From Lethocerus indicus (lineage: Eukaryota; Arthropoda; Insecta; Hemiptera; Belostomatidae), in NCBI GenBank assembly GCA_019843655.1, contig JACDQD010000006.1, positions 26,802,246 through 26,866,245 on the forward strand: DNA of 64,000 nt, written 5' to 3'. Under the pieces are notes generated by a model, which worked only from the letters and a program-made list of their open reading frames with translations, did not search any database and was not told the DNA's origin. Both the position numbers and the translations under genes were made by a program. Numbering within the stretch: the stretch's first letter is position 1; each line of letters begins with the position of its first letter. Positions 8,406-60,527 of the stretch are shown here, one piece after another.

Positions 8406-8547
8406 AGTTTAATATACCTGTTTTGTGGTATGCGGGGGGTTGGAATACCGTAGATTTCGTGTGTTTCTCCTATCGCTGGTTTGGTCTTTTGCTAGACCGG
8501 TTTCGGCCGCTCGCCATCTTCAGTAGCGGTGTCAGTCACTTTTGGCT
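8406..8547 (-). mobile_element. Family A retrozyme-like repeat, copy 1 (partial)
   Basis: The minus-strand 3' tail is on the left (reverse complement of GGTATATTAAACTAG), followed by CCTGTTTTGTGGT, the CCGTAGATTTCG block, and one arm up to the GTGTCAGTCACTTTTGG segment. The second arm is missing. No clear target-site duplication is visible. It carries one complete hammerhead-like motif. Confidence 0.85.
8491..8527 (-). ncRNA. Hammerhead-ribozyme-like motif (family A copy 1)
   Basis: On the minus strand: GCTA, then CTGAAGA, then T, GGC-GAGCG-GCC, GAAA, CCGG, TC and TAGC. GCTA and TAGC pair as stem I, GGC and GCC as stem II, and ACCGGT forms the very short, self-complementary stem III. Predicted cleavage is after the GTC triplet. 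One extra T separates CTGAAGA from stem II. Confidence 0.6.
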
Positions 8548-10887
8548 TTCAATTTATTAAATGTAATGAACATTTTTTCTGAGCTTCCGCAACCAGAAAT
8601 ATTGCGTTGATTTCTAGTTTATTAACTCAAAGCTTCGGTTTTCACTAAATCCACTAAGAAATATAATCAGGGAGTGGGACAACAACAGAACTTTGCTAAC
8701 AAGCAAAGTTGTTGTTGAACAGAACAAGACTAACATTTTATCGCATAAAACCTAAAAACATATTGTAAAAATTGTCTGTAGAAACGGACAAAAACGCACG
8801 GATGTGGACATTATTTTATAAAACTGAAACGGAAAAACTCCCCCTTTTGGAAGTTTTTGGAGCGATGTTGAAGCTGGCCTTGTGGTCCCATTAATGAGCT
8901 CGACCCGTCCGTATTTCCCCCGTAATTGGTAGTAGTAGCTTTGAGGGCCTCGAATTAAACTGAATTTGCCTGCCGGAAAGCTTCACCGGGCGTGAGAAAA
9001 AGTTTAATTAAATTTTCCCGGTTTTTCCGGTCGTCACAGAAGCGACAAACGGCCCTTTTACTGAAACCGGAATCAACATTTAGTTAGTAGTATACGAAAA
9101 TATATTCTCTATTTCCATTTTACATTTTTAAAAAATCGTTCTGCAACTAGAATATTAAAACCATGATAGCAAATTTTCCTTTTTTCTATGAATTGATAGC
9201 ACGAACTTATGATAATGACTCTGGATTAGTTTTTCTGCTTATTACATCCACAACATTATACTTACCTTTAAGTGGGGGGAATGAGAATAAACTGATATCG
9301 AATACAGATAACAAAGCTGAAATTGAACAAACATAATAACGCATTTCTTTATGTAAAATTCTATGTTGGTTGGCATTTTTCGGTGTGATCGGAGGGGGGA
9401 TATCACAGTCAGAATCATAGAAGGGTTGAATACGAATGGATGAATTGATTTTATGTTGGTTCCTACATATTGAAATTGAATCCAGTATTGCAGTTTTGTA
9501 CATAATTCAGACGATGTAACGATTTTAAGATCTCCTTATCGAGGGAATAGAGATCAAAAATAGCGTTCACAAATAGAAGCGAGCATATTATTTCATCGTG
9601 TTTACAAGCCGGAATGTTGTCATAGGACGAAAACTGGTTTCGACCGTAACTCCAACGAACTGTACGGATCAGTTCGAATTCTCGTTCGAATGGGTAAACT
9701 ATTTAGTTCGTACTATCTTTTTTGTGATGACTTAACCGGTACTAATGTTCGATTATTTTCTAACTAACTAACTAACTAACAAACTAACGTACTACTTACT
9801 CGGATGTTTCGCCAACCCTTTGTATTTTGCCAATTTATTAGTCAAGAAAACCAACTTTAAATAGGAAGATGTCACCGAAAACGAAATTTCCCTTCAGGAG
9901 GTCATCTTCGTCGCTGTCAAATGTAAGTTGGACTCTTTATAAATCTAGGTCTGTTTAGATTTCAAACAGTTTCAATCTCCTACTACCTAAGGGTAATATT
10001 TTTCGATTAGACAAAGGAGTCATAATTCCGATTACTTGTCCTTCTATTCGACGGTTTTGATTTTTCTCCCGTTGGTTAAAAGGATTTGTATTTAACGCCG
10101 GCAATCGACATGCCCAATCGTGCCGCCCTGTCTCATTTCAAACTGTATTTGAAAGTAGTTTCGAAAGCGAGAACATAATTGTTGTTCGAAACCGAATGGA
10201 TTTACCTATGTCGTGCCGACGACGGAAATAGTCGCAAAGTCGAAAGTTACGAAGGCGAAGTCGTACTTCGCCCCCGGTGGTTGGGGGAGGGCTTTCGGCT
10301 CGTTTCAAGGTCTCAAGAAGGCCTTCAGTCCAATTTTGAGCGTGAGTCATGAGAAGCCAGATAGGGGCAAACAGTTTATCTTGAAAGTTAACGTTGCCGA
10401 CAGACTTCTTTAAAATCCCGCAGTCGAACGGGCAGAAATCGAATATTAAGACTGCAACATTCGGCACTTTACAAAACGGAAATGGACAGTAACAATTTAT
10501 ATAAGATATGACTTCATTTCAATGAAAGTGTGTAACGCTAGACACATTTAATATCATTTTGTACACTATTGATATTTCTTAATTATAATGCTATAGGGTA
10601 TAAAATGTTTCATTCCTGCAGGACTTGTTGAGAAGGGATTGACAAGGTTTTTTAAATAATGGGAAATGATGAGAAATTTCTGATGAGAGGGCCAAAACGT
10701 CTGATTGTAATTTTTTACTAGAAGCATTAACAATGTTACGTCAGTTGAACGGCTTAGGCCAAATTATAACGTCGATTTTTTGTTTTCTAACTTTTTCATT
10801 TTGCACAATCAACTTTACAGTTATAAGTACAATTGATACGTGTATATTTTTAACGCGTTTCTCTCGATAAAGAAACCACCAGATGAT
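8548..10887. other. Unique-looking sequence without a gene
   Basis: No coding signature is seen. It contains the CTAA tract at 9761-9788. Frames such as 9207-9503 and 10138-10467 resemble no family I know. Confidence 0.6.
9761..9788. repeat. CTAA microsatellite
   Basis: Five to six tandem TAAC units, the last ones with one change (AAAC). Confidence 0.85.
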
Positions 10888-11330
10888 GGCGCTTTTTGAC
10901 ACGATTCAACTACCGTCCGAAGTGATCTCCGGGCCAGAGGCGGGAGTGGAACTTCGGGAAACGGGATTTTGCGACTTAGTCGACTGTCGGTATGTTGAGG
11001 TCATGGTGGATTGTCTGGTTAGAAACATACCCAGGGAGGGGGGAGCATTAAGGATGGTGCGAAGGACTTTTGACTGGAATCTCTGGATGCGAGCGATGTC
11101 GGACGTCACGGTGGAACCCAATAGCTCAGTTTGTTACTCAAGATCAATGTTGATGTCCGTTTTAGTAACGGCCTCAAGAGACCAAATTTTCTGTTTAAGT
11201 CGATTCTTTTGAGTCGGGATTCCACGTGAGTCCTTTGTCCAGGTGGAGCCCAAGAATCCGCTGTTGGGTGGGAATTGGTATGTAATTGAAATAGAGGTCG
11301 GGACAGCGCTGACGACGTATAACGTCGATA
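10888..11330 (-). pseudogene. Jockey-type LINE, 3' end of reverse-transcriptase ORF (J1)
   Basis: Conceptual minus-strand translation gives LGLHLDKGLTWNP followed, after frame breaks, by SDIARIQRFQSKVLRTILNAP. These are the conserved tail motifs of the second ORF of Jockey-clade LINEs, downstream of the reverse-transcriptase core; in intact elements this protein copies the element RNA at the target site. Here the ORF is cut by stops and frameshifts, and the segment joining the two motifs (WTYGxELWG) is deleted. It is the longest of six fragments of the same family in the window. It is 5' truncated, as is usual for LINEs. No poly-A or target-site duplication was identified. Confidence 0.85.
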
Positions 11331-12969
11331 GAATCGAAACTTTAGTACAACTATAATTGGGATAAGATCGATTCAATTTGTTTCCCGGTCGAAGGGAAAT
11401 AGCTCTGTGTCCAAACATCCTCATTTCCCCGTAAAGCGACTGCGGAGTGCACTATCTATTGACAATATTGGCTAACTGGCTGGAGGATGTAGAGGCGGCC
11501 ATTCGGTTTAATCTGTCGGCTACGAGATAGCAGCACCGCTGTTGGACCAGTCGATAAGCTCCTACCAAATCCCGACCAACTTATACTACACGGTTCTATA
11601 CTGCCGTATAATATTATACCGCAACATAATAAGTGCACAAATTGAATTACAACTCGACAGCTGCGCGTAAAAATTCCCCATGTTGAACCGTTCATGCGTT
11701 CGCTATTTGAGAACAAATTTCATGTTTAATTTTAAACAACAGTACCTGGAGTCGTGTCGCTGTGGCCCTATATGCGATTTACTATATGCATTGTTCTCCT
11801 TAAAATTAGTAACTTTTCTCGTTCTATTCCTTCTACATTGTGCACGCCAACTAAATTTCACCTGAATCCCGATGTTACAATGTTTTGCGACATTTCGACC
11901 GAGTTATAGATCTGTCAAACATTGCGCAGTATGCTGATATTATGCTCTTAAAGTGTTGACGGTTTTGATGCAGATGATTAGAATAATAGTTAAGTACCAC
12001 AAGTGTCCAAAATAATTGTGTAATCCACTGTGAACACTTGTGTTCAACGTGTTCAAAACTTGACAGGTTGCACAATGTTAACATCGTGTGTTCCCTCGGG
12101 AACACATGTGTATTGATCACGCCGGCTCTAACGAAAATGTTATTTATTATATTCGGGACATCGGACCGAATCGAACCGGAATTGACCATTAATTTGAGAT
12201 CAACAGGGAGCTGTTGGATATTTTTCAAAGATGTGGTTCGCGACACATTTTTTAAATCCCATTTTGCAGAATTTACGGCTCAATAACAAGTTTCGATGCG
12301 ATGAAATTCACACGTTTTACAGAGGAAGAGTTACTGAGCGTCTCTCAAAAAAAAAAATAATAATAAATAAATAAAATAAACGGTGTCCAGAAAGCGTAAC
12401 AGAGATCCCAAATCCAGGACCTCGCCCAATCTCAAACCATGAGCCAACCATTATCATTTATCTTCCAATTAAGAAGAAGCCTTTTTTTTTGTTATTCCCC
12501 TATCGACACGAACCCCCATTCCGTCGGACAGTTTCGATTAATATTTATTTCTCGCAATAACTCCGGGATAAGACGGAAAATTCACAATATAGCTCTGATG
12601 CATCGTTGATCGAACAAATACCAATATCGGCTTGGATTATTTCGACTGCTACTTGAACCAAAAGGTTTCGGTATAATTTGAGATTTTTATTTGGTGATTT
12701 GGCGTGATGAGAATTTTTCCCAGTTGACACGCGAAGGTGAAGGTATCGACGCCTGAGAATTAATATTTCATCAGGACAGAAGTGGTTCGAATCCCAGTGG
12801 CGGTCTGAATATTCGTTCAAAGCGACAAAACCGGACGACCTAGTAGACTCCAGTATAAATAAATTAAATACACGTATGTATGTTGAAAAATTTACAAACT
12901 TGGCCTTTTATTGTGGACAGCCTGCAGGACTTTTGGACCTTTTTCTGTTGCGTCAAACTTTTACAACTG
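11331..12969. other. Unique-looking sequence without a gene
   Basis: Overlapping frames on both strands at 11875-12286 show no known domain. A perfect GGTTCGAATCC (RNA polymerase III B-box-like) occurs at 12784-12794, but no A-box lies at tRNA distance and no clover-leaf can be drawn. An A-rich stretch lies at 12348-12380. Confidence 0.55.
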
Positions 12970-13013
12970 ACAACTTCGTGTGTTTCTTTCTTCCCTCGCT
13001 CGTTTGGTCTTTT

Positions 13014-13050
13014 GCTAGACCGGTTTTGGCCGCTCGCCATCTTCAGTAGC
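13014..13050 (-). ncRNA. Damaged hammerhead-like motif (family A copy 2)
   Basis: Same layout as the other copies, with GCTA/TAGC and GGC/GCC stems kept, but the invariant GAAA reads AAAA. Loss of this G would be expected to abolish cleavage. Confidence 0.5.
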
Positions 13051-13138
13051 GCTGTCAGTCACTTTTGGCACTTTGGACGTATTTTGGGCATCATCACTGC
13101 AGCACTGTCACTTGTACTGTGGTGGTTGTCAGTTTGTC

Positions 13139-13140
<2 letters not shown>

Positions 13141-13181
<41 letters not shown>

Positions 13182-13190
13182 TACACGCGT
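13141..13190. repeat. TA/CA microsatellite at the centre of copy 2
   Basis: TA repeats followed by ACACAC, located where the palindrome loop of family A lies. Confidence 0.9.
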
Positions 13191-13366
13191 CTTGTTACTG
13201 TGTTTTTGGGTGATTTTTGTAAATCGGTTTAAGTTTTTGTAGGCGGTTGTCGGTCAAAAACGGGGGAGAACCAAAGCAGCGAGAGTAGTAATGAAACGCA
13301 CGAAATCTACGGTATTCCAACCCCTCGCAGACCACAAAAAAAGGTATTTTAAACTAGATACAACTT

Positions 13367-14034
13367 ATGTTATAAGGATAAAACTTAGGAGAAGGGATGA
13401 TCTTTTCTGTTTCCTGTATATGGGCCAAAGTCCGATGTTTCGGTCTTTAATGTAAAACTTTCAAAACTGTGCTAAAAACTCCCCCTACAGTGCCACTTGA
13501 ATGCCCCCTACAGTGTCAATAAATACCCGTGTAGTTTACCATTTTTTTTAAAATTACAAGTTACTTTTTGGTAGTTTGGTAGAGTGTACACCCGCGGTTG
13601 GTTGTACAGGGGTAAGTGTCAGAATATTGACTTTGGGAGTAGCTGGGTGGTAGGTGGTAGGACTCCTCCCTCCCTCCCTCCCTCACTCTTATCTCACTTT
13701 ACTCAGATCAGGATGGTTTACGCCCCCCCAGGAATACGCCCCAATAAACTAGCTGATCTGGCCACGGCCTCTAACAGATAGCTTCGTGCCAGCAATATAT
13801 TTGCGACAGTTTCAAAGTGTCCTTTCCCGGCATAAATTGCCCCTTTGAATTTGTAATTGCGTAACGGTGGTGGATGGACTCAGAGGATGGCAATTAAACG
13901 CGGCACTTTTGCAAGATGTACTGCTGGAAAAATTTGTTCTTCATTTAAAAATAAAAAATCGGATCACTACCGGATTTCATCTGATTGTGATCTGTATTTT
14001 TGTTATTGTCCTCCGAATTCCCAGTATTATAAAA
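13367..14034. other. Unique-looking sequence without a gene
   Basis: It contains a CCCT microsatellite at 13664-13684 and a phrase ending TACAGTGCCACTTGAATGCC that is half-repeated about 20 bp later. No gene seen. Confidence 0.55.
13664..13684. repeat. CCCT microsatellite
   Basis: Five CCCT units in a row. Confidence 0.9.
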
Positions 14035-14393
14035 GTTAAATAATTATTTTAGAATACCTGGTTTGTGGTCTACGAGGGGTTGGAATACCGTAGATTCCAT
14101 GTCTTTCCGTCTCCTCTCGCTGGTTTGGTCTTTCGCTAGACCGGTTTCGGCTGATCGCCATCTTCAGTAGCGGTATTAGTCACTTTGGATGATTTTTGGT
14201 GGACATCCACTGTCCCTTGTACTGTGGTGGTTGTCCCTTTGTCGTATATCGTGTGTCTCCAGTAAGGACCCAAATAACACAAACATCCCACAAAACCACA
14301 ATAACAACACAGTACAAGTGGCAGTGACAGTGCAGTGATTAACACCGCTACTGAAGATGGCGAGCAGCCGAAACCTGTACGTTAAATAATTAT
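14035..14393 (-). mobile_element. Family A retrozyme-like repeat, copy 3, with 13-bp TSD
   Basis: Perfect direct repeats GTTAAATAATTAT flank the body (14035-14047 and 14381-14393). The 3' tail is on the left (TTTAGAATACC reads GGTATTCTAAA on the minus strand), followed by GTGGTCTACGAGGGG and the CCGTAGATTCC block. Both arms are present, but the right arm stops after CGAAACC instead of running to CCGTAG, so this copy is 5' truncated in its own orientation. The left-arm hammerhead core is complete; the right-arm one is cut. Confidence 0.9.
14135..14171 (-). ncRNA. Hammerhead-ribozyme-like motif (family A copy 3)
   Basis: Minus strand GCTA-CTGAAGA-T-GGC-GATCA-GCC-GAAA-CCGG-TC-TAGC. The stem II loop differs (GATCA) while all pairing and core positions are kept. 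Confidence 0.6.
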
Positions 14394-15283: not shown

Positions 15284-15303
15284 CCACACACACACACACA
15301 CAC
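15284..15303. repeat. CA microsatellite
   Basis: About ten CA units. Confidence 0.9.
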
Positions 15304-16909: not shown

Positions 16910-16951
16910 GAGAGGGAGAGAGAGAGAGGAGAGGGAGAGGAGAGAGAGAGA
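16910..16951. repeat. GA-rich microsatellite
   Basis: GAGAGA runs broken by GG. The purine strand is unbroken for about 40 bases. Confidence 0.9.
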
Positions 16952-17145
16952 TTCGGGCTCCTGACTGTTTCGTAGATGCGCAGTTGAAGAGTGGCGCTGG
17001 GAGAAGCTGCCACCCCCACGGCTTTCGCCCCTATCTACACACATTTACCCCCTTAGTAGAATGTCGTACACAGCTAGAAATAGTAGCACTACCTGTACTC
17101 ACGCCATCAGTTGTTGTTTTCTGGGCAGGCTAGTTTCAGTTTAGT

Positions 17146-17168
17146 CACCCCCACCCCCACCCCCACCC
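17146..17168. repeat. CACCCC repeat
   Basis: Four tandem CACCCC units. The minus strand has four G-runs and could form a G-quadruplex. Confidence 0.85.
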
Positions 17169-20100: not shown

Positions 20101-20169
20101 AGTTCGATTTTCCCGACCGATTTTTCTTACCGTTCTAAAAGAGAGCACTCTCAGGGTACTCTACAGATC

Positions 20170-23640: not shown

Positions 23641-23875
23641 TTGGAGATAAGACCGAAATTAAAGCAAGGTTTGAATTTGCCACCATTCTTGCAGTAAAGT
23701 TGGGTCAACCCTATTAAAAAAACCCTTTTTACAGCTCATAGTTCAGGGTTAGTACAAATGGAGCGTTACGCGATAGAAAAACGTGTTTTCATTGTTGAAC
23801 AATATTTCAAAAATAATGAATTTTTGGCAGCCACAGTTCGATTCAAATTTTGCGTCAATTTTGGGACACCCTATA
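23641..23875 (+). mobile_element. Mariner-like deletion derivative with transposase N-terminus (M1)
   Basis: The same family as 41779-41994. From 23757 an ORF reads MERYAIEKRVFIVEQYFKNN and on through LAATVRF. This is the start of the helix-turn-helix DNA-binding part of an IS630/mariner-type transposase. It then runs straight into the 3' terminal inverted repeat (TTTTGCGTCAATTTTGGGAC, then ACCCTATA). The catalytic DD(E/D) part is deleted. The left terminal repeat (ACCGAAATTAAAGCAAGGTT) is decayed. It would need a transposase from elsewhere to move. Confidence 0.85.
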
Positions 23876-27516: not shown

Positions 27517-27779
27517 GTAATATTTTATTAGTTCAAGATACCTGTTTTGTGGTCTGCTAGGGGTTGTGGAATACCGTAGATTTAGTGTGTATTTCTGTCT
27601 CCTCTCGCCGGTCTGGTCTTTCGCTAGACCGGTTTCGGCTGCTGACAGTGCCCGAAAAACATCCAAAGTGCCAAAAGTGACTGACACCGCTGCTGAAGAT
27701 GGCGAGCGGCCGAAACCGGTCTAGCAAAAGGCCAAACCGGCGAGAGGAGACCGAAACACACGCAATCTACGGTAATATT
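27517..27779 (-). mobile_element. Family A retrozyme-like repeat, copy 4, with TSD
   Basis: Direct repeats GTAATATT flank it (27517-27524 and 27772-27779). The 3' tail is on the left (GGTATCTTGAACTAATAA on the minus strand) and the 5' end on the right is exactly at CTACGG (CCGTAG on the minus strand). The left arm has a deletion joining CGGTTTCGGCTGCT to GACAGTGCCCG, so only the right-arm hammerhead motif is complete. Confidence 0.9.
27689..27725 (+). ncRNA. Hammerhead-ribozyme-like motif (family A copy 4)
   Basis: Plus strand GCTG-CTGAAGA-T-GGC-GAGCG-GCC-GAAA-CCGG-TC-TAGC. Stem I keeps four pairs, one of them G-U. Cleavage would fall between 27721 and 27722. Confidence 0.6.
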
Positions 27780-29000: not shown

Positions 29001-29287
29001 ATATTGTAGATTTCGCCGGTCTCCTCTCGCCGGTTTGGTCTTTGCTAGACCGGTTTCGACTGCCCGCCATCTTCAGTAGCGGAGTTAGTCACTTTGGATG
29101 TTTTTCGGGCCTCCCCACTGCACTGTCACTGTCGCTCGTACTGTGTGTATACGACAGGAAACCTGTCTGGTATTGTATATTTACGAGCATGAAAGTTTTC
29201 CTGTTGATCCAAAATATATTGAAAAAGATGGGAATTCCAACCCCTCGCCGACCACAAAACAGGTATTTCAAAATAAAAAATATTGTA
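29001..29287 (+). mobile_element. Family A retrozyme-like repeat, copy 5
   Basis: ATATTGTA occurs at both edges (29001-29008 and 29280-29287); its last three bases overlap the element's own GTAG start. The 5' end is GTAGATTTCG and the 3' end is CGACCACAAAACAGGTATTTCAAA. The left arm holds a complete hammerhead core and the right arm lacks it. The tail GGAATTCCAACCCCTCG is intact. Confidence 0.85.
29044..29080 (-). ncRNA. Hammerhead-ribozyme-like motif (family A copy 5)
   Basis: Minus strand GCTA-CTGAAGA-T-GGC-GGGCA-GTC-GAAA-CCGG-TC-TAGC. Stem II is kept with a G-U pair although several bases differ from other copies. Confidence 0.6.
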
Positions 29288-32894: not shown

Positions 32895-33235
32895 GCTCCC
32901 TACCTTGGACTCTATATAGACTGCTGAGACCGCTATGGACAAAAAATTAACAACATACAAATCTATATTATAACCGACACGGAATAGAACTATGGGGTTC
33001 CGCTCAAGAAATTCGACATCGCTCGCATCCAGAGATTCCAGTCGAAAGTCCTTCGTACCATCCCTAATGCTCCCCCCCCCTGGTATGTTTCTAACCACAG
33101 AATCCACCATGACCTCAACATACCCCGACAGTGGACGAAGTCGCAAAATCCCCGGTTCCCGAAGCTCCACTCCCGCCTTTCCCTTCATCCTAATCCACTA
33201 GTTCAGTCCCTTTCCTCTCCTCTTTAACACCAGGG
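32895..33235 (+). pseudogene. Jockey-type LINE fragment (J3)
   Basis: Plus-strand nucleotides follow J4 closely: GGAATAGAACTATGGGGTTCC, CATCGCTCGCATCCAGAGATTCC, GTCCTTCGTACCATCC, ACATACC. Translation recovers HGIELWGSA and, after frameshifts at a run of C, HRIHHDLNI. It ends with HPNPL-like residues and CAGTCCCTTTCCTCTCC. It is 5' truncated and out of frame. Confidence 0.85.
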
Positions 33236-34520: not shown

Positions 34521-34572
34521 AAATACCCGTTTTGTGGTCTTTCGAGGGGTTGGAATTACGTAGATTTCCGCA
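34521..34572 (-). mobile_element. Family A fragment, copy 16
   Basis: Only the 3' tail block remains: AAATACCCGTTTTGTGGTCT, TTCGAGGGGTTGGAATTACG and TAGATTTCC. Confidence 0.75.
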
Positions 34573-36558: not shown

Positions 36559-36660
36559 GGCTCAACTCCTCGGGTGTTGTCTGCTTACGACGTTTCGCAA
36601 CTCTTACTGGTTACCGTAGGTTCGCGGTGTTTCTGTCTCCTCCCGCCGGTTTGGTCTTTC

Positions 36661-36697
36661 GCTAGACCGGTTTCGGCTGCTCGCCATCTTCAGTAGC
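36661..36697 (-). ncRNA. Hammerhead-ribozyme-like motif (copy 6, left arm)
   Basis: Minus strand GCTA-CTGAAGA-T-GGC-GAGCA-GCC-GAAA-CCGG-TC-TAGC; all core positions kept. Confidence 0.6.
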
Positions 36698-36825
36698 GGT
36701 GTTAGTCACCGTTGGCACAATGCACAAAACACAATAAGGAGACAACCGCCACAGTACAAGTGACAGAGTGACAGTGCAGTGAGGATGCGAGAAAAACATC
36801 CAAGGTGCCGACAGTGACTAACACC

Positions 36826-36864
36826 GCTACTGAAGATGGCGAGCGGCCGAAACCCCGGTCTAGC
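36826..36864 (+). ncRNA. Hammerhead-ribozyme-like motif (copy 6, right arm)
   Basis: Plus strand GCTA-CTGAAGA-T-GGC-GAGCG-GCC-GAAA-CCCCGG-TC-TAGC; two extra C bases enlarge stem/loop III. Confidence 0.55.
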
Positions 36865-37170
36865 AAAAGACCAAACCAGCGAGAGGAGACAGAAACACAA
36901 CGAACCTACGGTATTCCAAACCCTCGCAGACCACAAAGCAGGTATATGAAACTCTTACTGGTTACATCATCCAAATTCAAAATCTGCAATTAATATATAT
37001 TACTGTAGCTTTTTTCGATAGTCCGCTACTTTGTTCTTTCTGCAGACAGGTTTCTGAACTGCGCTCCACTGTAGTAGACACAAGACCCAAAAAGAGACTA
37101 TGACAATACCCTCGCAGATCACCCAACGGGTTTTTAACAAAGTTCAACAAAATATTTCATTTTAAATACA

Positions 37171-41778: not shown

Positions 41779-41994
41779 TAGGGTGTTCCGAAATTAACGC
41801 AAGATTTGAATTTGCCACCCTATACTTGCAGTAAAGTTGTCAACCGTATTAAAAAAAACTATTTGACAGCTGATAGTTTAGTGTTACACGATAGAACAAC
41901 GTGTTTTCATTGTTGAACAATATTTTAAAAAATAATGAAAGTTTGCCAGCCGCAGTTCGATTCAAATCTTGCGTTAATTTCGGTACACCCTATA
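41779..41994 (+). mobile_element. Mariner-like MITE, sister of M1 (M2)
   Basis: Terminal inverted repeats GGGTGTTCCGAAATTAACGC (left) and the complementary GCGTTAATTTCGGTACACCC (right) are flanked by TATA on both sides, consistent with a TA target duplication. The inside matches M1, including GTGTTTTCATTGTTGAACAA, but the transposase start codon is lost and the frame is broken. Confidence 0.9.
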
Positions 41995-44353: not shown

Positions 44354-44356
<3 letters not shown>

Positions 44357-44639: not shown

Positions 44640-44790
44640 TATATGGTTCGTGTTTTTTGGTCTTCGAGGGTTTTGAATACCATAGTTCTATCGAAGTCCT
44701 CATGTTGGTTTCGGCTGTTCGCCACCGTCAGTAGTGTGACGAATCCCGCCTGCACTGTCATTGCACTTGCAGGCCAGGTATTTCTTACGA
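44640..44790 (+). mobile_element. Family A, copy 15 (decayed)
   Basis: TTTGGTCTTCGAGGGTTTTG, AATACCATAG, GGTTTCGGCTGTTCGCCACC and GTCAGTAGTG follow the family order, ending GCCAGGTATTTCTTA. The ribozyme core is lost. Confidence 0.7.
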
Positions 44791-48019: not shown

Positions 48020-48425
48020 GAATCCCCATACCCGACTCAAAAGAATCGATTTAAACCGAAAATTTGTACTCTTAAGGCCATTACTAAAACGGACATCGAA
48101 ATTGACCTTAAGTAACAAACTGACAGTATACTTAAACCGACATGGACATACGGTGTAGAGCTATGGGGTTCCACCAAGACATCCAACATCGCTCGCATCA
48201 AGAGATTCCAATCAAAAGTCCTTCGCACCATCCTTAATGCCCCCCCTGGGTATGTTTCTAACCACACAATCCACCATGACCTCAACATACCGACAGTCGA
48301 CGAAGTCGCAAAATCCCGATTCCTGAAGTTGCACTCCAGCCTTTATCCTCATCCGAATCCACTCATTCAATCCCTTTCCTCTCCTACCCATCCATTATCC
48401 CCCCCGCGTCGGCTCATATAAATCA
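48020..48425 (+). pseudogene. Jockey-type LINE fragment, best preserved (J4)
   Basis: Translation gives YGVELWGSTKTSNIARI, then FQSKVLRTILNAPPGYVSN, then HHDLNIPTVDEVAKSRF and HPNPLIQSLSS before stopping near 48420. This is the C-terminal tail of the reverse-transcriptase ORF of Jockey-clade LINEs. Upstream, PTQKNRFKPKICTLKA corresponds to the region after the LDxxLTW motif, with a stop and frameshift near 48114. It is 5' truncated like all copies here and cannot make a working protein. Confidence 0.9.
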
Positions 48426-50647: not shown

Positions 50648-50665
50648 TGTTCCTCCCGGTCTTTT

Positions 50666-50702
50666 GCTAGACCGGTTTCGGCCGCACGCCATCTTCAGCA
50701 GC
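50666..50702 (-). ncRNA. Hammerhead-ribozyme-like motif (copy 7, left arm)
   Basis: Minus strand GCTG-CTGAAGA-T-GGC-GTGCG-GCC-GAAA-CCGG-TC-TAGC; identical to the right-arm motif. Confidence 0.6.
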
Positions 50703-50880
50703 GGTGTTAGTCACTATTGGCACTTTGGATGGTTTTCGGGCATCCTCACTGTCACTGTCACTGTCACTTGAACTGTGGTGGTTGTCTGTTTGTCTTGTCT
50801 ATATATATGTATATATGTCAGTACAAGTGACAGTGACAGTGCAGTGAGGATGCCCGAAAACCATCCAAAGTGCCAACACC

Positions 50881-50917
50881 GCTGCTGAAGATGGCGTGCG
50901 GCCGAAACCGGTCTAGC
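50881..50917 (+). ncRNA. Hammerhead-ribozyme-like motif (copy 7, right arm)
   Basis: Plus strand GCTG-CTGAAGA-T-GGC-GTGCG-GCC-GAAA-CCGG-TC-TAGC. Predicted cleavage is between 50913 and 50914. Confidence 0.6.
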
Positions 50918-50965
50918 AAAAGACCCGTATCGGTATTCCAACCCTTCGGAGACCACAAAACATAT

Positions 50966-51540
50966 TTGACCGTCGTTCTCCCTTGAATAGTAGTACCGCT
51001 CGGACATTTCAGCCGGAGAAATAAGCGGGGCTCTATAATGTTATTAATTATAAGTTTACCAAGGGTTGGGGGTCACCCGCCTTTAAGTAAGGCTGTTTTC
51101 AGTACCGGCGTTTGGTACGTTTTTTGTTGTTGTTGTATTTCTCCTTATATGTACAATAGGGACTGGGACACAGCCGCCAGGGCCTTGAATATAGTTTGAC
51201 ACACGGACACTGTAGCTGTGTCGGGGCCGGTGAATAAAACCGCCACCTAATAACCTGTCATCAGCGTTATTATAACTGGCTCTCTACAGCCAGAGAGTGA
51301 GAGAGATTAGAGAGAGAGAGAGAGACTGAGACATTAAAGACTCGCTCGCTGTTCCCCGACACCGTCTTGTTTAACCGGCGCCTTTCCAGCCCATTAACAG
51401 TTAAAACTTAAACGCTCCAACTCGTTTTTACGATTATTGCCATTTCAGTCCTCCAAACTGTACGGGCAAATGTTAAATTGGGTTGAAAAACTGGAGGTGC
51501 TGAACTAGAGTTAAGGCGAATAAAGCTTGAACTTTGTCCT
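50966..51540. other. Stretch without a gene
   Basis: It contains a GA microsatellite at 51292-51326. No gene seen. Confidence 0.5.
51292..51326. repeat. GA microsatellite
   Basis: Interrupted GA runs. Confidence 0.85.
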
Positions 51541-51742
51541 CTAATTATTGAGAACGCCGTAGCTTTCGTGTGTTTCTGTTTCCTCTCGCCGGTTTGTTTT
51601 CTTGCCAGACCGTCTTCAGTAGCGGTGTTAGGCACTTCGCCACTTTGGATGTCTTTTGGGCATCCCCAGTGTCACTTGCACTGTCCACGACAGCACCTTG
51701 TAGCTCGCAGACCACAAAATAGGTACTCTAAACTAATTATTG
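51541..51742 (+). mobile_element. Family A, copy 8 (short subfamily), with 10-bp TSD
   Basis: CTAATTATTG occurs at 51541-51550 and 51733-51742. After CCGTAGCTTTCG the body follows the family but lacks the ribozyme core (CCAGACC joins directly to GTCTTCAGTAGCGG). The right arm is reduced to CTCGCAGACCACAAAATAGG plus the TACTCTAAA tail. The segment CGACAGCACCTTGT before the tail is shared with copies 10 and 13 and defines a subfamily. Confidence 0.88.
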
Positions 51743-51817
51743 TGAATTCGTCAGTTATATACTAAAACGTTCACCGATCCGGGGAAGGCCTTTGGTACTG
51801 ATATAAAACAAATAACG

Positions 51818-51938
51818 AATAGCGAAACAAGAGTTGTGATTAGTGTATTGAAATTTATGGTTAACATGAGTTGCGATGTACAAGGCATTACTAATGATAG
51901 CAGAAAGTAATATTCGTTAATTATAAACATTTAAAAAC
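51818..51938 (+). repeat. Duplicated 120-bp block, first copy
   Basis: Starts AATAGCGAAACAAGAGTTGT and includes GTATTGAAATTTATGGTTAA and GATGTACAAGGCATTACT. It recurs at 60113-60230 with few changes, and in both places it runs straight into a family A copy starting at C-C/T-GTAGATTTCG. Confidence 0.92.
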
Positions 51939-52012
51939 ACCGTAGATTTCGTGTTTTTTCCGTCTCCTCTCGCTGGTTTGGTCTAGCAAAAGACCACAAA
52001 ACAGGTATTCTA
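51939..52012 (+). mobile_element. Family A, copy 9 (internally deleted to ~74 bp)
   Basis: ACCGTAGATTTCGTG and CTCCTCTCGCTGGTTTGGTC join directly to TAGCAAAAGACCACAAAACA and the GGTATTCTAA tail. Both arms are deleted between the outer parts. Confidence 0.85.
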
Positions 52013-52139
52013 ATAAAACGGGTAAACTAATTTAAAAACAAATTTTAATCGTTGTTTCAGTACCTAACGATTTTCACAATACCCTAATGGACCCGTAATG
52101 GTTCATTTACTTCTGAACTAATTTATTACTAGTTTTACA
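52013..52139. other. Short spacer between copies 9 and 10
   Basis: About 130 bp of AT-rich sequence with no recognised feature. Confidence 0.5.
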
Positions 52140-52361
52140 TACCAGTTTTGTGGTCTGCGAGCGGTTGAAATACCGTAGATTTTGTGTGTTTCTGTCTTCT
52201 CTCGCTGGTTTTCGTCTTTTGCTAGACCGGTTTCGGCTTCTCGCCATCTTCAGTAGCGGTGTTAGTCACTTTGGATGTTTTTTGGGCATCCTCACTGTCA
52301 CTTGCACTGTCCGCGACAGCACCTTGTTACTCGCAGACCAGAAAACAGGTACTCTATACTA
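52140..52361 (+). mobile_element. Family A, copy 10 (short subfamily)
   Basis: Starts TACCAGTTTTGTGGTCTGCG and ends CTCGCAGACCAGAAAACAGG plus TACTCTATACTA, so tail sequence is present at both ends, unlike most copies. It shares GCGACAGCACCTTGTTACTC with copies 8 and 13. The left-arm hammerhead core is complete. Confidence 0.85.
52221..52257 (-). ncRNA. Hammerhead-ribozyme-like motif (family A copy 10)
   Basis: Minus strand GCTA-CTGAAGA-T-GGC-GAGAA-GCC-GAAA-CCGG-TC-TAGC; only the stem II loop varies. Confidence 0.6.
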
Positions 52362-54984
52362 ATTATTTAGAATTCGTAAACAGAGGGTCGGCTAGATAAA
52401 GACAGTGGTCCTACTAAAACCTATAAGCCTTTAGGGACAACAATGCTAACGAAACAACGAATTTTCCATTTCATTTACCGATATCGTCAGGATAGGATCC
52501 GGGAGTCTAAAAAAATCTCAAATCGCCTAATCCTAAATTTAAATAAATTTAAATGTGAGTGTATTTAGCCGTGTTGAAACTAGATATTTATGAATTGCGA
52601 TTAGATTTCTCCGTCTCACGTCAACATGAGACAGTTATTTTTCCATCTTGGCGGAACAGTCTGAAAACGGGTTGTAAAAGGGAGTTTTCGGCTATTTCGC
52701 GGGGCGGTTTCCGATGAAACCGGGTCAACCAGGAATGGAGTAAAGAGCGAAGGTTTGGCTCACGACTCTTGGGGGGGGGCCTTAAACGTCGGAAGGTAGT
52801 CTCGGTATTCCTCGGGTTTCAGCTCGCTGCTCCCAGTCTAAGAAACGGCCGTCATCGATTTGTAGTTTCGGTACCAGACCTAAACTCCGGCGCTGAATTG
52901 AGGGCGCTCGGATAATCTATACGGCGCTTTTCACCCCCCAAGAATGTATACGTGCAGAGTTAAATATAATAAAATTCGTTTCTATCTATAAAACTCCTGC
53001 CATCGCAGAGACTGTACAAACTGTACGTTACTTAAAGAGGAGATATGTCGAATCATAGGTTTGGATTATTGTGATAATCTTGAACGGAAGGATTTAACTC
53101 GTTCGCTACCGACTTTTTTTTACCACATATGTGACAGATATTTTTGCACAATTTACAAAGGCACGTTTGAACATGTTGAGTATTGAACAAAATTTTAAGT
53201 TCTAAAACTGTAAAATGTATGAAGTCTGTACTCGGTCCGCTCTCGCATTAGATTATTTAGTGTCTTTATGACAGTTGAATAGGTCGGTTTAGCAGGGTTA
53301 GTGAAATTAACGGGCAATAAGTTATGTTTAAAAAGGAAAAGATCGTACAAAATAAAATGAATTTAATATTGATAAATTGTATTTATATTGCTTTTGGCTT
53401 ATAATCAATTTCTTTTAATTTAATGTGAGACATATATGTGACACGTGGGCTTCGGCGTTTAGTTTTTATCTATAGCCCTGCGTCACATATTTGTGTCAGT
53501 TTAAAAGAATACTTATTTTACTTTTTTGGACTGTAAGGATTGTAATGATTGAATTCCGTACGTCTGGACAGATTGTAAAATACAGTTGTGTATGAATAAT
53601 TTGTACATAATTAATAGTAGTGATCTTTTATCGAGGATTTTTGATAGCATTCGTACACAACGTTGTTTCGTTTCTGTACTTTCTTCTGCCCAAGCCTCCT
53701 TTTATTTCGACATATTGATATTTCGAATCGTGATATTTCAATCATCCTGAGGGTATTCTATGGTAAGGAAGTAATGAATTATGACATTAGGAAGAGTTTC
53801 AATCTCATGACGACCAGGTATATAAATATTCATTGGGAACGTCACGAGATTGGGGCCTCATTCCTCGATTTAATTCGCAGAATAGCTTTTTCCTCGCCCG
53901 CAAATGAATTATTATTGATTGTGCGACGCGTTCGGCTATTCAATTCCGTCATTGAAACGCCCTTCGTGCGAAGCTAATTGCAGATTGAACTGTGTTGATT
54001 GAATTCTCACCAGTAACCGGTCGGCAGCGATAAACGAATACAATCACTATCACTGTGCTATCACTATGGACCCCACTATAAACTGAATCCAACCCCAGTG
54101 AAGTGTCAGCGGATATTAGGTGATACGATTATTAGGCTGTTGCAGAGATAAGGCAAGAATTTTCTCCAAATTTGAGTGAAGATAGTGTCACCATTTGGTG
54201 CAAATACTGGTTCATATTCCGATCAAGAAAGTTGAGTTTAAGTCACGTTACGAAATTTCAAACCTAACGCCCAAAATGTATTATTGGACCAATTGTTGTA
54301 ATCCCATCGTCGGGGTTTCAATTTTCATTACTTGAGAGACTCGAGACTTTGAGAGTTTGCTCCCGACAATAAAAGGCTCGGTTAGCTTCAGTTCACTCGG
54401 TCAAAATTGCAGTGTAACGTTTGATGTTGCAGTACGGCATTTTAGTTGCCTTTCACTTTCATCCTTTGGCCGGTCGTGGGCCCCGGTCCCTGTTGGGAAA
54501 GAAGGCATCAGTCGAGTACGAGTTGAATGAAAAACATTTTTAATTCCAATCATTTTCGTTGGAATATAACCGTTAGTTGTATTATATATTCGTGATCTTA
54601 TTCAAACCGACTGAAATCGCATCAACTCTTACAGATATCCGTTCTATACGTGGTATGTCATCAGTCGAATGGGGGCCGACGTCGCATTGTTCCGAAGAAC
54701 ACAGGCGCGAACGACGATTCCTATTTCAGGAGGGATTGGGATAGCTGCATCCTGTGGAATACGTGACACAAGACATCCTGTTCATCCGCGTACACATTAA
54801 AAGTTGAATAATTCCCAGAACTCGCGTCAAGGTCTCTGCCGGTCACGAATCATAAACTCAGTTGTAGTTTTTTTTGTTTTTCATTTTATCTATTGTACGA
54901 CTGAATATTGTAGTTACAGGTAGAATTGCAGAGATTTGATGGCGAAGGAGTGAATTAGGACGAGGGGGCTTATTGATAAAACAA
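52362..54984. other. Stretch without a gene
   Basis: No gene is recognised. After copy 10, words such as GAATTCGT, CTACTAAAACC and AGCCTTTAGGGAC loosely parallel the sequence after copy 8 (51743-51800), suggesting an older shared repeat. Confidence 0.5.
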
Positions 54985-55245
54985 GCTTAAAATACCTGTT
55001 TTGTGGTCTGCGAGGGGTTGGAATACCGCAGATTTCGTGTGTTTCTGCCTCCTCTGGCTGGTTTGGTCTTTCCCAACCCCTCAACACAAAGGAGACAAAC
55101 AACATCCCCCAAAAACACGATAACAAGACACGTACAAGACAGACGACAAACAGGACAACCACCAGAGGTACAAGTGACAGTGACAGTGCAGTGAGGATGC
55201 CCCAAAAAACATCCGAAGCAAAAGACCAAACACAAGAAATCTACG
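54985..55245 (-). mobile_element. Family A, copy 14
   Basis: The 3' tail is on the left (CTTAAAATACCTGTTTTGTG). The 5' end is on the right at AAATCTACGG (CCGTAG on the minus strand). A possible AAACAA short repeat lies at both edges. The ribozyme-bearing arm segments are deleted. Inner arms with TACAAGTGACAGTGACAGTG and GAGGATGCCCC remain. Confidence 0.85.
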
Positions 55246-58200
55246 GTGAAACAATAACACTTTTACCGTTCTGTTGGAATTTCAACACTTCGGTTGTCGA
55301 TGAAGCGTGTCCGCTATAACAGTAGGAGTGCAATGCTAACAGGATGCTCCGGAGACGGAATTCGGCTTTAAAAGTCGACCGTAAATCGATCAACGGTCCC
55401 CGCACTATTTACGACGTCGGTAAACAAAAACGGTATAACTTACGGCGGTCCTAAAAATTTCAACGGGAGCCAAAAATGTCGGAAAAAAAGGGAATTGTGA
55501 AAGCCGTCCCGAGGCTTTTTCCAAGCGAACGGGGTAGCGACTACCCCGGTAAATATTTATAAAGGGACAAAGGAGAAAAAGGTGGGATAGGAAACAATCC
55601 TTTGCCGGTCTCCGTTTCCTCTAACGTCGAGCTAAAATTAAAACGCCCCCCCATTCCCTAAATACGGCCTTGGCCAAGTAGCTCCCAAGTACACATCCTG
55701 CTTCCACCAATTGTACTTATTACATCATATATTTTTATATAAAATACAATTTTCACTACAAGTTCCAATAGTCAAAATGTAGTGGAAAATGTATCAAAAA
55801 TTGTCTATTACGACCATTGCGGAGAATTTGTCACGACGGAAACATGACGGCGTCGACAATGAGGAAGTTCTACTCCGTTCAAATTAGCCGAGTCCGAAGA
55901 GTCCAGGGATGAATTTTTCATCGCCCTCTCCTGATTATAATGGCCGTTTCTCTCGAAACGCGTGTTTTGCGGTTAACAATCCGTCCCGCTTCAATAATTC
56001 CCCGTGGGAAGGAGCGTGAAATTCAATTATCTGTCTGACGATAGCGTTGAATGGCGTGTGGATACATCATTAATGTAGTTTTCCATCCTCCCCCCGCCAC
56101 CAATAATTCTTTCACTGGAATTTACATGAAATCGAGAAACGAATTTCCGATTTCAATGAAAATTCCGGGCCCATCTCAGTGCTTCCCTCAACTATTACAC
56201 ACGTGTTTTTTCATATAATTTGTTCTAACGGTTATAATCCAAGAGTCTAATAAAATAATTCAGTCATTATTGAAAATTTTTCTGAAATTGAACAAATTGA
56301 GTACAAATCCTGCCTATTCAAAGGGGTCAGGATCGCGAAATCATCCCCACACTGTTTCAACCCCTTAACGGCCGATTCAACCCTTACACTGCCCTGGACA
56401 GTAGACATTCAACGGCATTGTATATAAAACTGTCTATTGTTGTTATTATTAATCGAGGCGTGCAGAAATTGTAATTTTCACCGCCGGGGTTAGCGACAGA
56501 CACTCCGTTTAAGCGTGAAATAGGCGTCAAATCCAATGCAAAACCGGTCCCGGCCCGCAGGATTTATAGAGCCGTCGCGTCTTCATTTAACCGTATAATA
56601 TCGCCACCGAACAGCCTTGACCTAGTCAACCGGATTAAGGGCGGCTGCAATTCAAAACCAGATTATAGATTAAGATCTCGCCCCAAGTCCCAAGAATTAT
56701 AAAGGCGTATACCGTATATTGAAAATCCGATATTTATATCATAAATTCTCCCTCGTGTTCATAATACAGCGTTTCAATACTGTACAAGGCAAATATTGTA
56801 CCGTCATTGTATTCTCGAACAGTTTATATTTGCAAATTTATTGCAACTCGAAATCCGTTTAAAATATGCCTGATCAAAACAAGTTTAAAATTATTTGCTC
56901 TACACGAATTTTCCGGATTTTTTAGAAACTGTATATCTTATTCATCGGGCGCATATTATTTATTATCCTTATTTAGTATCCTTGAGCATAATTCTTTCTT
57001 AATTTCGATAGGCCTGAATATCCAATGTAAAGTAGGCTACTTCTATTAAGCACCCTTTGAGCGCTATAATCGATTTTTAGTATACTAAAATTTATAATTG
57101 AGTTGTCGAACCACCGATCTGCGTTTATTTGGCCTGAACTCATAATTAGGATTCATTACAAGATTTGCGTTGTCCCGTTTCTTGACAACATTTTTTAGTA
57201 TAGTTTTTTTTCTAGATTATTCCGGAAAACAGGAATTCAGATAATAATGTCCGGAACGGTAATTTACCGGCCACTTCTTTTGCGTCTCAGGCGGTAACCT
57301 CTGGTACCTGGGCTTGGTGAAGGTATCTGGGTTGTCTGAAAGTGGGGGAAGGGACCTACCGCGTAGTAACAGCCTTTCGTAAGTGTCTTTAATATTATTA
57401 ATTTTTGTTCTGTCCCGAGTGTTGCCAACTGTGCTGCCGTGGACGGCCCGTTGGCAACTGTGCCAAGGACTCGTGTTCCCCCGGCCCTCAATTATGCCCC
57501 GTGCACATTTTATAACAACTTATGAATTATTGGATCGCAAGGTGCCTCCCTACGCTAATGCACCGGTACTCCGCTCCCCAAAGCCCAAAACCGGCCGTCC
57601 CAAAAACCGTAAACACTTAGTAGCCGTAAACAGCGTACGGTTTATCGCCTTTAAAAAGCTTTCAGATACTTTACGTACACGGCCCCTCCCCCCCCCATCC
57701 CATTAGTCCAACTTCGATACCTGTATAATGTTAATGCATCTTTCATTGTCAACCCCAACTTATGTTCCGACATCGGGTCCCCCACCTGTACAGAACACAT
57801 AAAAACCTTTCATAGCAATATAAAACAAGTATCCAATCATACGTTGCAAATATTGGTTTCCCCGACCAGCGTCATTTAAAACAATCCTTATTAGACAAAA
57901 TTAAAACCGGGGCAGGTACAAAGTTTTTGGTTAGATATTTTGATGAGAATCGATAGCGGTACGGTGTATATATATCGGTATTGTTAATAAATTCTGCCGG
58001 TTTAGCTGTTAAGGCCCCGCTTATGACAGGAGGCCATTATCGGCTACGGCTACTTACGGGGCTGTCGGCTGTATATGTATATATATACAGCCGGTCGGTA
58101 TAGTTACTTGAAAGTTATAGTCCCTAGGTCTAAGTTTCCACTCTCCCATATATAGTGGGGGCCCTGGCTACGATCATAACTTATCGTAGAGAGGGCCTAA

Positions 58201-59982
58201 TCTCATTTATGTATCCTCTACGCTAGCTTCAACTTGAATAAAGTCAATGAAGATGTTATATAATCGTATGAATACTAAACAATATAATTATTTGATCGAT
58301 AAAAGCGACAGCACAAATATAAAATTTTAGTCAATGGTTAGGTGGGGTTCACGAACTATTATAGGTAGACTCAGTTCCGGACGCCCAGTTAGGTTTGTCC
58401 AGAAGTCCTATTAGTAATATAAACATTTATTAGTAAACATTATTGTATCTAATAAATCTAGAAAAAGTACTTTAAATAAATGTTTCGCACAGAGGCCGTA
58501 ATTTTCCACCGGCGTAGCCAAAGACCGCTAATTTCGCGAGTTCTGCAACAATATCGTTTTTTTTTCTTTCGCAGCGTTCGAAACTGCTCCCGAAACTTAA
58601 TATCCCGGCCGGTGAATTTTCATTATTGCCCCGCCGAAAAAGTGTCGGCCGACTCGTTTGCCCGGTTTTTTTATTGACTGGACTTAAAATCCCTCCGGTG
58701 AAAAGCGATACGGGGGAGGCAAGTTGTCTTTTCAACCGGCGTGGAGGGGAGAAAGTCCGTAATAGTTTCCGTCACTGTTGCCACTCAGTCTTATTAATTT
58801 ATGACCGTAATTAAATAACGATGCCATGAATTTGAGACAGCGACTGTAGCAGATACTCCCACCTGATAAGCCTATTATCGGTAATATTTTTAAACGATAT
58901 CTCTGTATAATCTTGAGCACGCTTTGTTTCACAAGATATATGGACATATATAGATTTTGAGCGTTAATTCAGATTCCCGTTTAGTCCTGTATGTTCGGTT
59001 ACGTTTTCACGAACGATATAATGGGGACAACGGAATACCCTCCGAATAATTAAAGCGCAGATTGAAGTTTTTTTTATAGTAGTTCGAAAATTCGATACTG
59101 CGCTTGAAATTTGTCTAGAATCGTGTTTCTTCTTCGCAGGATATCAAGACGGACGAGCGTTTGTGTTTCCATTTGTCCGGTTTTGCGATTTCTCTACAGG
59201 GGGCAGCCGCCATATTTGGCGCCCCTCCACATACCGGTTAAACGGGCTTTCGTCCACTCGCCGCGTATTTCGTAGCGAACGGGGTACGAAAATACTCTCG
59301 TTATTAACCTCGGAGAGAGTCCAGAGAAAACTCTCAGGATCCCCTTAGAACGCAGAGCTGAGAACCGAGTAATTTTTTTTTTAAGGTCGGATAAAAATTT
59401 GATCTGTGACGGGCGAAAACGAGACAGTAAATGAGCGTGATAAATTAAAGGGCAACAGAAATTCAGGCCAATCTTCCGCTCTAATAAACTTTTAGTTTGT
59501 AAACCTTAAATAGTAAATAGTTAACAAACATTTTGTATGGTATGTCGAGATGAAATACTCCCAGCATATTCCTCCGGAATTGGAAATTGATCTATTCCGG
59601 GTTAGCAAAAAGTGATGAAATTATTTCGAGAACAATTGGGCACTGCCCCGTTACTGCAGTTGTAAAAACAGTAACTGTGTTGATCGCGAATTTCGTGTGC
59701 TATTTTCTGGTTGAAAACAGTGACGAGTCTTTGAACAGTGAGACGTGCGAGGGATTATTACTGTCTTCGTACAGAGCTCGTGATATTAAACTGCCCCGGG
59801 CGCCATTCTGCTGGCGGCTTGCGCGAGGATGTGTTGCTTCCCATTTCTTGAAAAATCAAAAGCCCCTTTCATGGACCCCATTCATCGCCTCCGATTCCTC
59901 CTGCTGTGGAAGAAAATGTAGGGTTTTACGCCATACGACGGCAACTTCCGATACGGTGAACAACTGAAACGACATTTAACAA
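55246..59982. other. Stretch without a recognised gene
   Basis: Frames at 57264-57706 and 58472-58947 overlap antisense frames and match no family I know. 59116-59142 (TCGTGTTTCTTCTTCGCAG then GATATCAA) is a strong 3' splice-site look-alike, followed by 32 open codons and a stop. The 126-codon frame at 59587-59967 has no known domain. Confidence 0.45.
58066..58093. other. Small perfect hairpin
   Basis: CGGCTGTATAT pairs with ATATACAGCCG around a short TATA-rich loop. Confidence 0.6.
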
Positions 59983-60053
59983 TACCGTAAGATTTTGTGT
60001 ATTTCTGTCTCATCTCGCTGGTTTCGTTAGACACAAAATTACATTTAGTATTC
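59983..60053 (+). mobile_element. Family A, copy 11 (internally deleted, like copy 9)
   Basis: TACCGTAAGATTTTGTGTAT, TCATCTCGCTGGTTTCGTTA and GACACAAAATTACATTTAGT mirror the structure of copy 9 with further decay. Confidence 0.7.
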
Positions 60054-60112
60054 AATTTACAACTCTGAATCTATTCCAAACTGTCAACAGCCAAAGAACT
60101 ACAACGCTCAGA

Positions 60113-60230
60113 AATAGCGAAACAAGAGTTGTGATTAGTGTATTGAAATTTATGGTTAACGTGAGTTACGATGTACAAGGCATTACTGATGATAGCAGAA
60201 AGTGAAATTCGTTAATAAACATATAAAAAC
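60113..60230 (+). repeat. Duplicated 120-bp block, second copy
   Basis: Matches 51818-51938 from AATAGCGAAACAAGAG through GTTAATAAACATATAAAAAC. Again it is immediately followed by a family A copy and preceded, 60 bp upstream, by another. Confidence 0.92.
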
Positions 60231-60358
60231 ACTGTAGATTTCGTGTGTTTCCATCTCCTCTCGATGGTTTGGTCTTTCTCTGAACCGATTTCGGCTGTTC
60301 GCCATCTTCAGTAGCGGTGTTGGGTCACTTTTGGCACTGTTTGGGCATCCTCACTGTA
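60231..60358 (+). mobile_element. Family A, copy 12 (one arm)
   Basis: Starts ACTGTAGATTTCGTGTGTTT and runs to GGGCATCCTCACTGTACTG. The hammerhead motif is damaged: stem I reads CTGA instead of CTAG and the cleavage triplet is changed. Confidence 0.85.
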
Positions 60359-60366
60359 CTGTGATT

Positions 60367-60527
60367 AGTTTAGAGTACCTGTTTTCTGGTCTGCGAGTAA
60401 CAGGGTGCCGTTGCGGACAGTGCAAGTGACAGTGACAGTGCACTGCCGAAACCGGTCTGGCAAAAGACCAAACCGGCGAGAGTGGAGACCGAAAAACACG
60501 AAATCTACGGTATTCCAACCCCTCGAA
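60367..60527 (-). mobile_element. Family A, copy 13 (short subfamily)
   Basis: The tail is on the left (AGTTTAGAGTACCTGTTTTC), followed by GGTCTGCGAGTAACAGGGTG and the subfamily segment GCGGACAGTGCAAGTGACAG. It then jumps to GCCGAAACCGGTCTGGCAAA and ends at ACGGTATTCCAACCCCTCG. The CTGAAGA half of the ribozyme is deleted. Confidence 0.85.

Follow-up and report, generated by a model that had tools for sequence, protein, structure and literature searches.

The described systems closest to the repeat family analysed here are Penelope-like elements (PLEs). According to the portions of PMC3846280 available to us, Penelope elements have inverted pseudo-long terminal repeats (pseudo-LTRs), one of which carries a 31-bp tail at its 3' end, together with palindromic junctions and, in some copies, 8-10-bp target duplications; a TATA lies within the pseudo-LTR, the open reading frame (ORF) starts inside it, and foreign sequence has been captured between the pseudo-LTRs. 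An excerpt of PMC11167929 describes one PLE in which the ORF begins at hammerhead stem II, 26 bp upstream of the cut; it inserts at AT-rich targets, primes in a stem-loop rich in A and C, and has a hammerhead whose cleavage requires protein and which is dispensable for insertion in vitro. PLE hammerheads usually have no helix III (PMC7761336 and PMC6155905, in part), the role of the minimal hammerheads is described as unknown in the passage seen of PMC7761336, and Aedes hammerheads have palindromic stem III sequences that may need dimers (PMC3088659, in extract). We analysed a window of 64,000 nucleotides of the Lethocerus indicus genome (contig 6, JACDQD010000006.1, 26.80-26.87 Mb; positions below are those of the window) that carries a dispersed palindromic repeat, family A. 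We consider family A to be probably a non-autonomous Penelope-like retroelement with two inverted pseudo-LTR-like arms of ~150 bp, one of them bearing a 40-base 3' tail. Each inverted arm includes a minimal hammerhead motif, a putative ribozyme that is probably conserved in source copies.

The pattern CTGAAGANGGC-N5-GCCGAAACCGG was matched 12 times in the window at up to three mismatches, against no match across 100 shuffles. Seven copies are exact over CTGAAGATGGC-N5-GCCGAAACCGGTCTAGC, CCGGTCTAGC included (8491-, 14135-, 27693+, 36661-, 50666-, 50885+ and 52221-, the sign giving the strand). A first-pass annotation of this DNA had listed nine intact strings; the seven stand, but stem II of the copy at 29044 reads GTC in place of GCC and the copy at 36826 has CCCCGG in place of CCGG, and additional damaged motifs, absent from that list, lie at 13020 (GAAA to AAAA), 14351 (CCTG for CCGG) and 60285 (TCGG for CCGG). 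Its assignment to a minimal type I hammerhead of the PLE kind agrees with the order CUGANGA...GAAA...UH, exact in 7 of the 12 window matches. From sequence order and spacing, the putative pairings are stem I GCTA/TAGC (4 bp), stem II GGC/GCC (3 bp) and the palindromic ACCGGU; the tiny self-complementary stem III that had been proposed is this 6-base palindrome, through which two copies could share stem III. The motif lies on opposite strands in the two arms, as annotated, with both cores intact only in 50658-50967 (E7) among the window elements. Over the whole genome (427 Mb in 209 contigs) the count of the exact 22-base core is 8,649 (4262 + 4387), and that of its reversed control is 0. Because some contigs look like alternative haplotypes kept in the assembly (the same matches recur on C9/C100, C8/C99/C123 and C4/C144), these genome copy counts are somewhat inflated.

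No Rfam model matched the window at the gathering threshold, and no hammerhead appeared at E<=10 either across the whole window or in the 301 bases around the best motif pair, where the listed matches were mostly microRNA hairpins because the palindrome raises them. Viral contigs with similar strings, retrieved with two related search patterns (38 and 22 stretches, 43 distinct matches), served as controls. Complete hammerheads (stem III hairpin plus stem I) were found in 18 of the 43, at most 1 of 200 shuffles being as good, under a strict completeness script that left unscored L104 and L110, which Rfam recognises. The extra base after CTGANGA, already pointed out in the annotation, is frequent there: a T follows in 17 of the 18 complete hammerheads, the first pattern having demanded it, and in 8 of 9 under the second. 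Among the contigs L064-L123, most complete-looking hammerheads carry CTGANGA-T-GGC, and the exact family A motif has no match among the viral contigs. At gathering, Rfam recognised 0 of 9 viral-contig sources; at E<=5, applied to six sources, it found L104 (2.1e-6) and L110 (1.7e-4), both lacking the extra base, and gave no match for L107, L122, L096 and L088, all with it (the core of L096 and L088 is that of L071, and neither was scored separately). The absence of any covariance-model match, which the first-pass annotation regarded as refuting its hammerhead, was thus observed but is indecisive: since the models also missed 4 of 6 controls, their silence says little on the extra-base variant.

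The architecture of family A was established with a 195-base arm query, which recovered 167 arm pieces in 352 kb (the window and fetched loci, one overlapping locus dropped). Chaining yielded 76 copies or clusters: 28 one-tail palindromes, 2 two-tail, 2 tail-less, 26 single arms (14 tailed), 16 with at least three pieces and 2 others, proportions that are not genome-wide, as 27 loci had been chosen because they held the motif or an unusual tail and 3 lie in satellites. The element measures ~330 bp; its two inverted arms of ~150 bp each run inward to a short centre, frequently with a TATATA run. The arm without a tail stops near position 150 (...ATCTACGGTATT), at arm position 145-153 in 20 of the 28 one-tail palindromes, and the tailed arm adds ~40 bases (...CCAACCCCTCGCAGACCACAAAACAGGTATTTTAAACTAATTA). 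The ends are thus not symmetric among the 32 two-hit palindromes (single tail 28, two tails 2, none 2), and from the tail on one arm and the positions at which arms end we conclude that the element has an asymmetric structure and that 5' truncation is frequent. By eye, nothing is conserved downstream of the 76 tails except nested copies and arrays. Among the 14 copies whose arms could be compared over 40 columns or more, the identity between the two arms of a copy exceeded the mean against other copies in 12 (equal in one, lower in one) and exceeded the best other arm in only one, 50658-50967, whose arms do not differ in any of 99 columns and have three rare variants in common; these identities fit arm-to-arm copying in some copies, not all. 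Derivatives of family A also form arrays. Locus L049 (C95:125800-128300) is a tandem array of a family A mini-palindrome with a period of 136 bp and a centre that is exactly ACCGGT, which is what a deletion between both ACCGGT copies would leave, and L050 and L051 (C188) hold a ~147-bp satellite built of family A ends, adjoining exons that are spectrin-repeat-like by eye.

Target duplications were sought by comparing both flanks of 27 copies in which the tail end was defined, one nested window cluster having been excluded beforehand. Flank matches of at least 9 bp were present in 7 of the 27 (12, 12, 12, 12, 12, 13 and 16 bp) and in 8 of 702 pairs of flanks taken from different copies. At a minimum of 7 bp the figures were 11 of 27 and 74 of 702, so that shorter matches are individually inseparable from chance. 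A hand count gave A or T at 71 of the 89 duplication bases, compared with 57-65% AT in the window. Together, the target duplications, one-sided tail and 5' truncation, none of which figured in the first-pass annotation, argue for insertion of an RNA copy. The distance of the predicted cleavage site is ~53 bp to the 5' end and ~97 bp to the 3' end, and a cut there would split the RNA instead of defining its ends; among 28 non-tail element ends, one is at position 96 and none at 97-98, which gives no cleavage footprint at the element ends.

Conservation of the motif was measured in 60 flank-anchored arms, seed copies with a forced motif being excluded. The 12 invariant core positions were changed in 23 of 682 cells (0.034) and the flanks in 257 of 3157 (0.081; Fisher p 4e-6, a value that is too small as the cells are not independent); with CpG sites removed, the counts were 18/625 and 221/2874. 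Change rates were 0.158 at the free positions (extra T and loop), part of which CpG decay may contribute in the loop, 0.057 in the stems and 0.033 in the core, in line with the earlier expectation of a core less variable than its loop. Along the arm, CTGAAGA comes first in conservation among 166 7-mers, CTGAAGATGGC ranks 3rd of 162 11-mers, and the 12-position core pattern, slid along the arm, scores 2nd of 144 in its true register. Stem changes are mostly one-sided, some retaining G-U pairs (10 T-G at pair 67-99). This conservation of the core relative to the flanks, with the extra T and loop varying, suggests selection in source copies. Several observations weigh on the other side: GCCGAAACCGG is only 47th of the 162 11-mers, 4 of 56 arms differ at U16.1, 5 of 57 at G12 and 0 of 57 at N7, a position free in hammerheads, and the sole two-sided standard-pair change is an A-T at 77-87 in one arm. 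The extra T is also the T of an ATG (CTGAAG-ATG-GC) 23 bases from the cut, the frame being open through query arm and tail. The ATG is retained in 26 of 34 arms, and 26 of 34 have at least 34 open codons. A coding constraint on this frame was rejected, the three codon positions varying alike (0.081, 0.066, 0.072) and a second frame being nearly open.

Structure prediction gave long hairpins for two near-full-length copies and one partial copy (-214, -224 and -132 kcal/mol). In the E6 and E7 folds the motif pairs with the opposite arm and is buried in the hairpin, which speaks against an active ribozyme in the complete palindrome. Stems I (4 bp) and II (3 bp) can form, whereas stem III is possible only between two RNAs. 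The dimer folding that had been suggested as a check gave no advantage to the hammerhead, the dimer reaching -23.3 kcal/mol against -24.4 for two monomers and -32.4 for the best cofold, energies that leave out tertiary contacts and protein. Cleavage is therefore conceivable in these models, though simple energies do not favour it, and the earlier proposal that transcripts of either strand self-cleave is left unsupported by the burial of the motif and by element ends that lie away from the cleavage site.

With a length of ~330 bp and no reading frame for a reverse transcriptase (RT) or GIY-YIG endonuclease, the copies could at most be a non-autonomous PLE derivative; Pfam found no PLE RT or GIY-YIG domain in the 10 of 169 window ORFs (>=70 aa) that were submitted. 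A 60-aa motif, used as a query for PLE RT, gave 58 genome matches at E<=1, of which 26 reached E<=0.001 (best E 1.9e-6). Two PLE-type RT copies were read (MGNPTSAILSELFLQDLE...RYVDDTL). This RT scores above the Pfam RVT_1 cut-off, telomerase reverse transcriptases are the closest to it among solved structures, as expected of PLEs, and its sole public relative found is from Rhagoletis zephyria. A tandem array of PLE fragments is indicated on contig C1 (G000:C1:10484816-10508639) by 14 identical-scoring PLE RT matches, mostly ~1.69 kb apart. Two other routes to a partner gave none. An RT family search, with 150 of 611 candidates scored, gave 12 partly read pieces, all LINE-type (long interspersed nuclear element) by eye (FADD/YADD, one damaged), and a search for the tail without an arm gave 87 places, by eye mostly indel variants and two satellites, 20 of which were taken as loci.

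Several of these results tell against a Penelope-like origin. The two PLE-type RT copies have no family A arms within the 1.9-2.0 kb read and are preceded upstream by a ~77-bp minisatellite; no element joining family A arms with a PLE reading frame was found; GIY-YIG gave 0 matches genome-wide, a search of doubtful reach as only 3 candidates were scored and host GIY-YIG genes were also missed; and 20 of the 27 copies have no duplication of at least 9 bp, while 5 of the 7 that do have one of exactly 12 bp. On the other side stand likenesses in the literature, each known to us from part of its source. The Penelope/Poseidon type and Adineta vaga Pen2a share an inverted beside a direct pseudo-LTR, the one-sided tail and short target duplications, and PLEs share a TATA in the pseudo-LTR (PMC3846280) and a minimal hammerhead with an ATG at stem II (PMC11167929). 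Family A differs in having no RT or endonuclease ORF between its arms, which stand nearly back to back, and in its thousands of copies. The minimal type I hammerheads that PLEs and Terminons carry (Cervera & de la Pena 2014 and Lunse 2017, via PMC7761336) have the same core order, no monomeric helix III and a form suited to dimers; those of family A depart from them in a stem III of CCGG (ACCGGU with the core pair), the extra T after CTGAAGA and the presence of the motif on both strands. The short nonautonomous Penelope elements of Heliconius (PMC6685494) are likewise short insect PLE derivatives, their structure and ribozymes being undescribed in the passage available.

Among other interpretations, the one to be taken most seriously retains the PLE origin and regards the hammerhead as a functionless fossil, never active as the arms pair with each other. 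We hold this to be possible though rather doubtful, an estimate that overlaps with that for our preferred interpretation because both share the PLE identity. The buried motif in the folds of two near-full-length copies fits it, as do a cut ~53 bp from the 5' end that would break the RNA, the near absence of ends at the cut (1 of 28 at 96, none at 97-98) and, in the part of PMC11167929 consulted, a PLE whose hammerhead is dispensable for insertion in vitro; the conservation of the core against its flanks, with extra T and loop free to vary, points instead to selection in source copies. A very unlikely account is that CTGAAGATGGC is a transcription factor site and its hammerhead likeness accidental. 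The factor would be YY1/Pho-like, with the motif AAGATGGC, and the T of ATGG is essential in a YY1 site. The greater conservation of the 5' half (CTGAAGA changed in 5 of 398 cells, N7 included, with GAAA...TC weaker) and the invariance of N7 would agree with such a site, but that T is the most variable base of the 5' half (8/56; 12/67), on which ground we disfavour the site; furthermore, the downstream GAAA, GTC and pairing stems complete the full hammerhead order, and the string is also present in viral contigs, where stem III is complete in 18 of the 43 distinct matches to the two related patterns.

Two further alternatives concern the type of element. Animal retrozymes, small non-LTR retroelements whose tandem hammerheads excise circular RNA, resemble family A in size (~330 bp), type I hammerhead, non-LTR nature and large target duplications, as far as the available part of PMC7229834 describes them. 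They are nonetheless an unlikely identity for it, since the family A motifs are inverted in a palindrome and not tandem (pairs within 300 bp among the first 100 genome sites listed: 6 minus-then-plus, 1 same-direction, 0 plus-then-minus) and its ends are not set by cleavage. A foldback or miniature inverted-repeat transposable element (MITE) type DNA transposon with long terminal inverted repeats is the least likely of all, highly improbable in our estimation. It would explain near-palindromic copies, the tail at both ends of 2 of the 76 chained copies or clusters and of E10, and the 5 of 7 clear duplications of exactly 12 bp; the asymmetric ends given by the one-arm tail and the 5'-truncated single-arm copies disfavour it, while duplication lengths, with the remaining two at 13 and 16 bp, do not decide.

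For the non-autonomous PLE that we prefer, the following cycle can be envisaged. A PLE protein supplied in trans would copy the element RNA into AT-rich nicks, starting in the A/C-rich tail, and self-priming or arm-to-arm copying would maintain the palindrome. The hammerhead would have been inherited from a PLE pseudo-LTR and retained in source copies. Cleavage would be expected only as a dimer, two RNAs being joined via ACCGGU, or with PLE protein bound, and chiefly in transcripts of single arms, since the motif is hidden in full palindromes. A very speculative extension, to which we give little credence, is a self-regulating ribozyme retroelement: the palindrome would give each strand a hammerhead yet hide it, full-length RNA would stay whole for copying, single-arm or paired RNAs would be cut as dimers, and ACCGGU would serve both dimer cleavage and arm pairing.

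Twelve copies, E1 to E12, and several remnants of family A lie along the window. E1 (8405..8546, -) is a 5'-truncated single arm with tail and an exact motif at 8491-8523 (-), and E2 (12975..13356, +) has two inverted arms, a right tail and the AAAA-bearing motif at 13020-13046 (-). E3 (14041..14378, -) consists of inverted arms with an exact motif at 14135-14167 (-), a truncated one at 14351-14377 (+) and a 13-bp target duplication; the inverted arms of E4 (27527..27774, -) carry an exact motif at 27693-27725 (+), and its flanks match over 8 bp, perhaps by chance. E5 (29019..29276, +) comprises a left arm and a right tail, with the stem II-altered motif at 29044-29076 (-). E6 (36612..36953, +) is a near full-length palindrome of 342 bp with an exact motif at 36661-36693 (-), a right motif from 36830 with a 2-base insertion and a 16-bp target duplication. 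E7 (50658..50967, +) has intact motifs at 50666-50698 (-) and 50885-50917 (+) and a TATATA centre; in its right arm, by analogy with the PLE start codon described in part of PMC11167929, the segment from ATG to the predicted cut after GTC would span 50891..50913 (+), the three letters of this ATG being the final A of the core, the extra T and the base that opens stem II. E8-E10 (51557..52365, no strand assigned) form a cluster of three related copies with an exact motif at 52221-52253 (-), E11 (54984..55224, -) is a palindrome remnant with no motif, and E12 (60228..60525, +) is a palindrome whose left motif, 60285-60311 (-), has one mismatch. Remnants are found at 34521..34568 (-, only arm end and tail), 44651..44734 (-, single-arm pieces) and 59981..60027 (-, outer part of one arm).

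The window contains other repeats. A large palindrome at 68-6220 has ~2.7-kb arms at 96% identity with 70-bp tandem units including GGTGCAATTGCACC, and is either a giant foldback element or an assembly fold-back. Related stretches at 33005-33221 and 48175-48385, 82-88% alike, look by eye like the 3' end of a LINE ORF on the plus strand; Pfam, applied to two minus-strand ORFs there, gave no match. A dispersed 71-bp repeat at 23805-23875 and 41924-41994 (87% alike) terminates in ACACCCTATA.

In the literature searched we found no account uniting a hammerhead ribozyme with a palindromic non-autonomous inverted-repeat retrotransposon and no insect MITE combining terminal inverted repeats with a hammerhead ribozyme, and the motif strings returned no relevant paper by title; as far as this search extends, the parts are known and the combination is new. 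A derivative that has no genes but keeps inverted arms, a conserved core and thousands of exact copies of that core narrows down which sequences a mobilising protein would need, and its wealth of natural variants allows testing whether ribozyme activity matters for copying.

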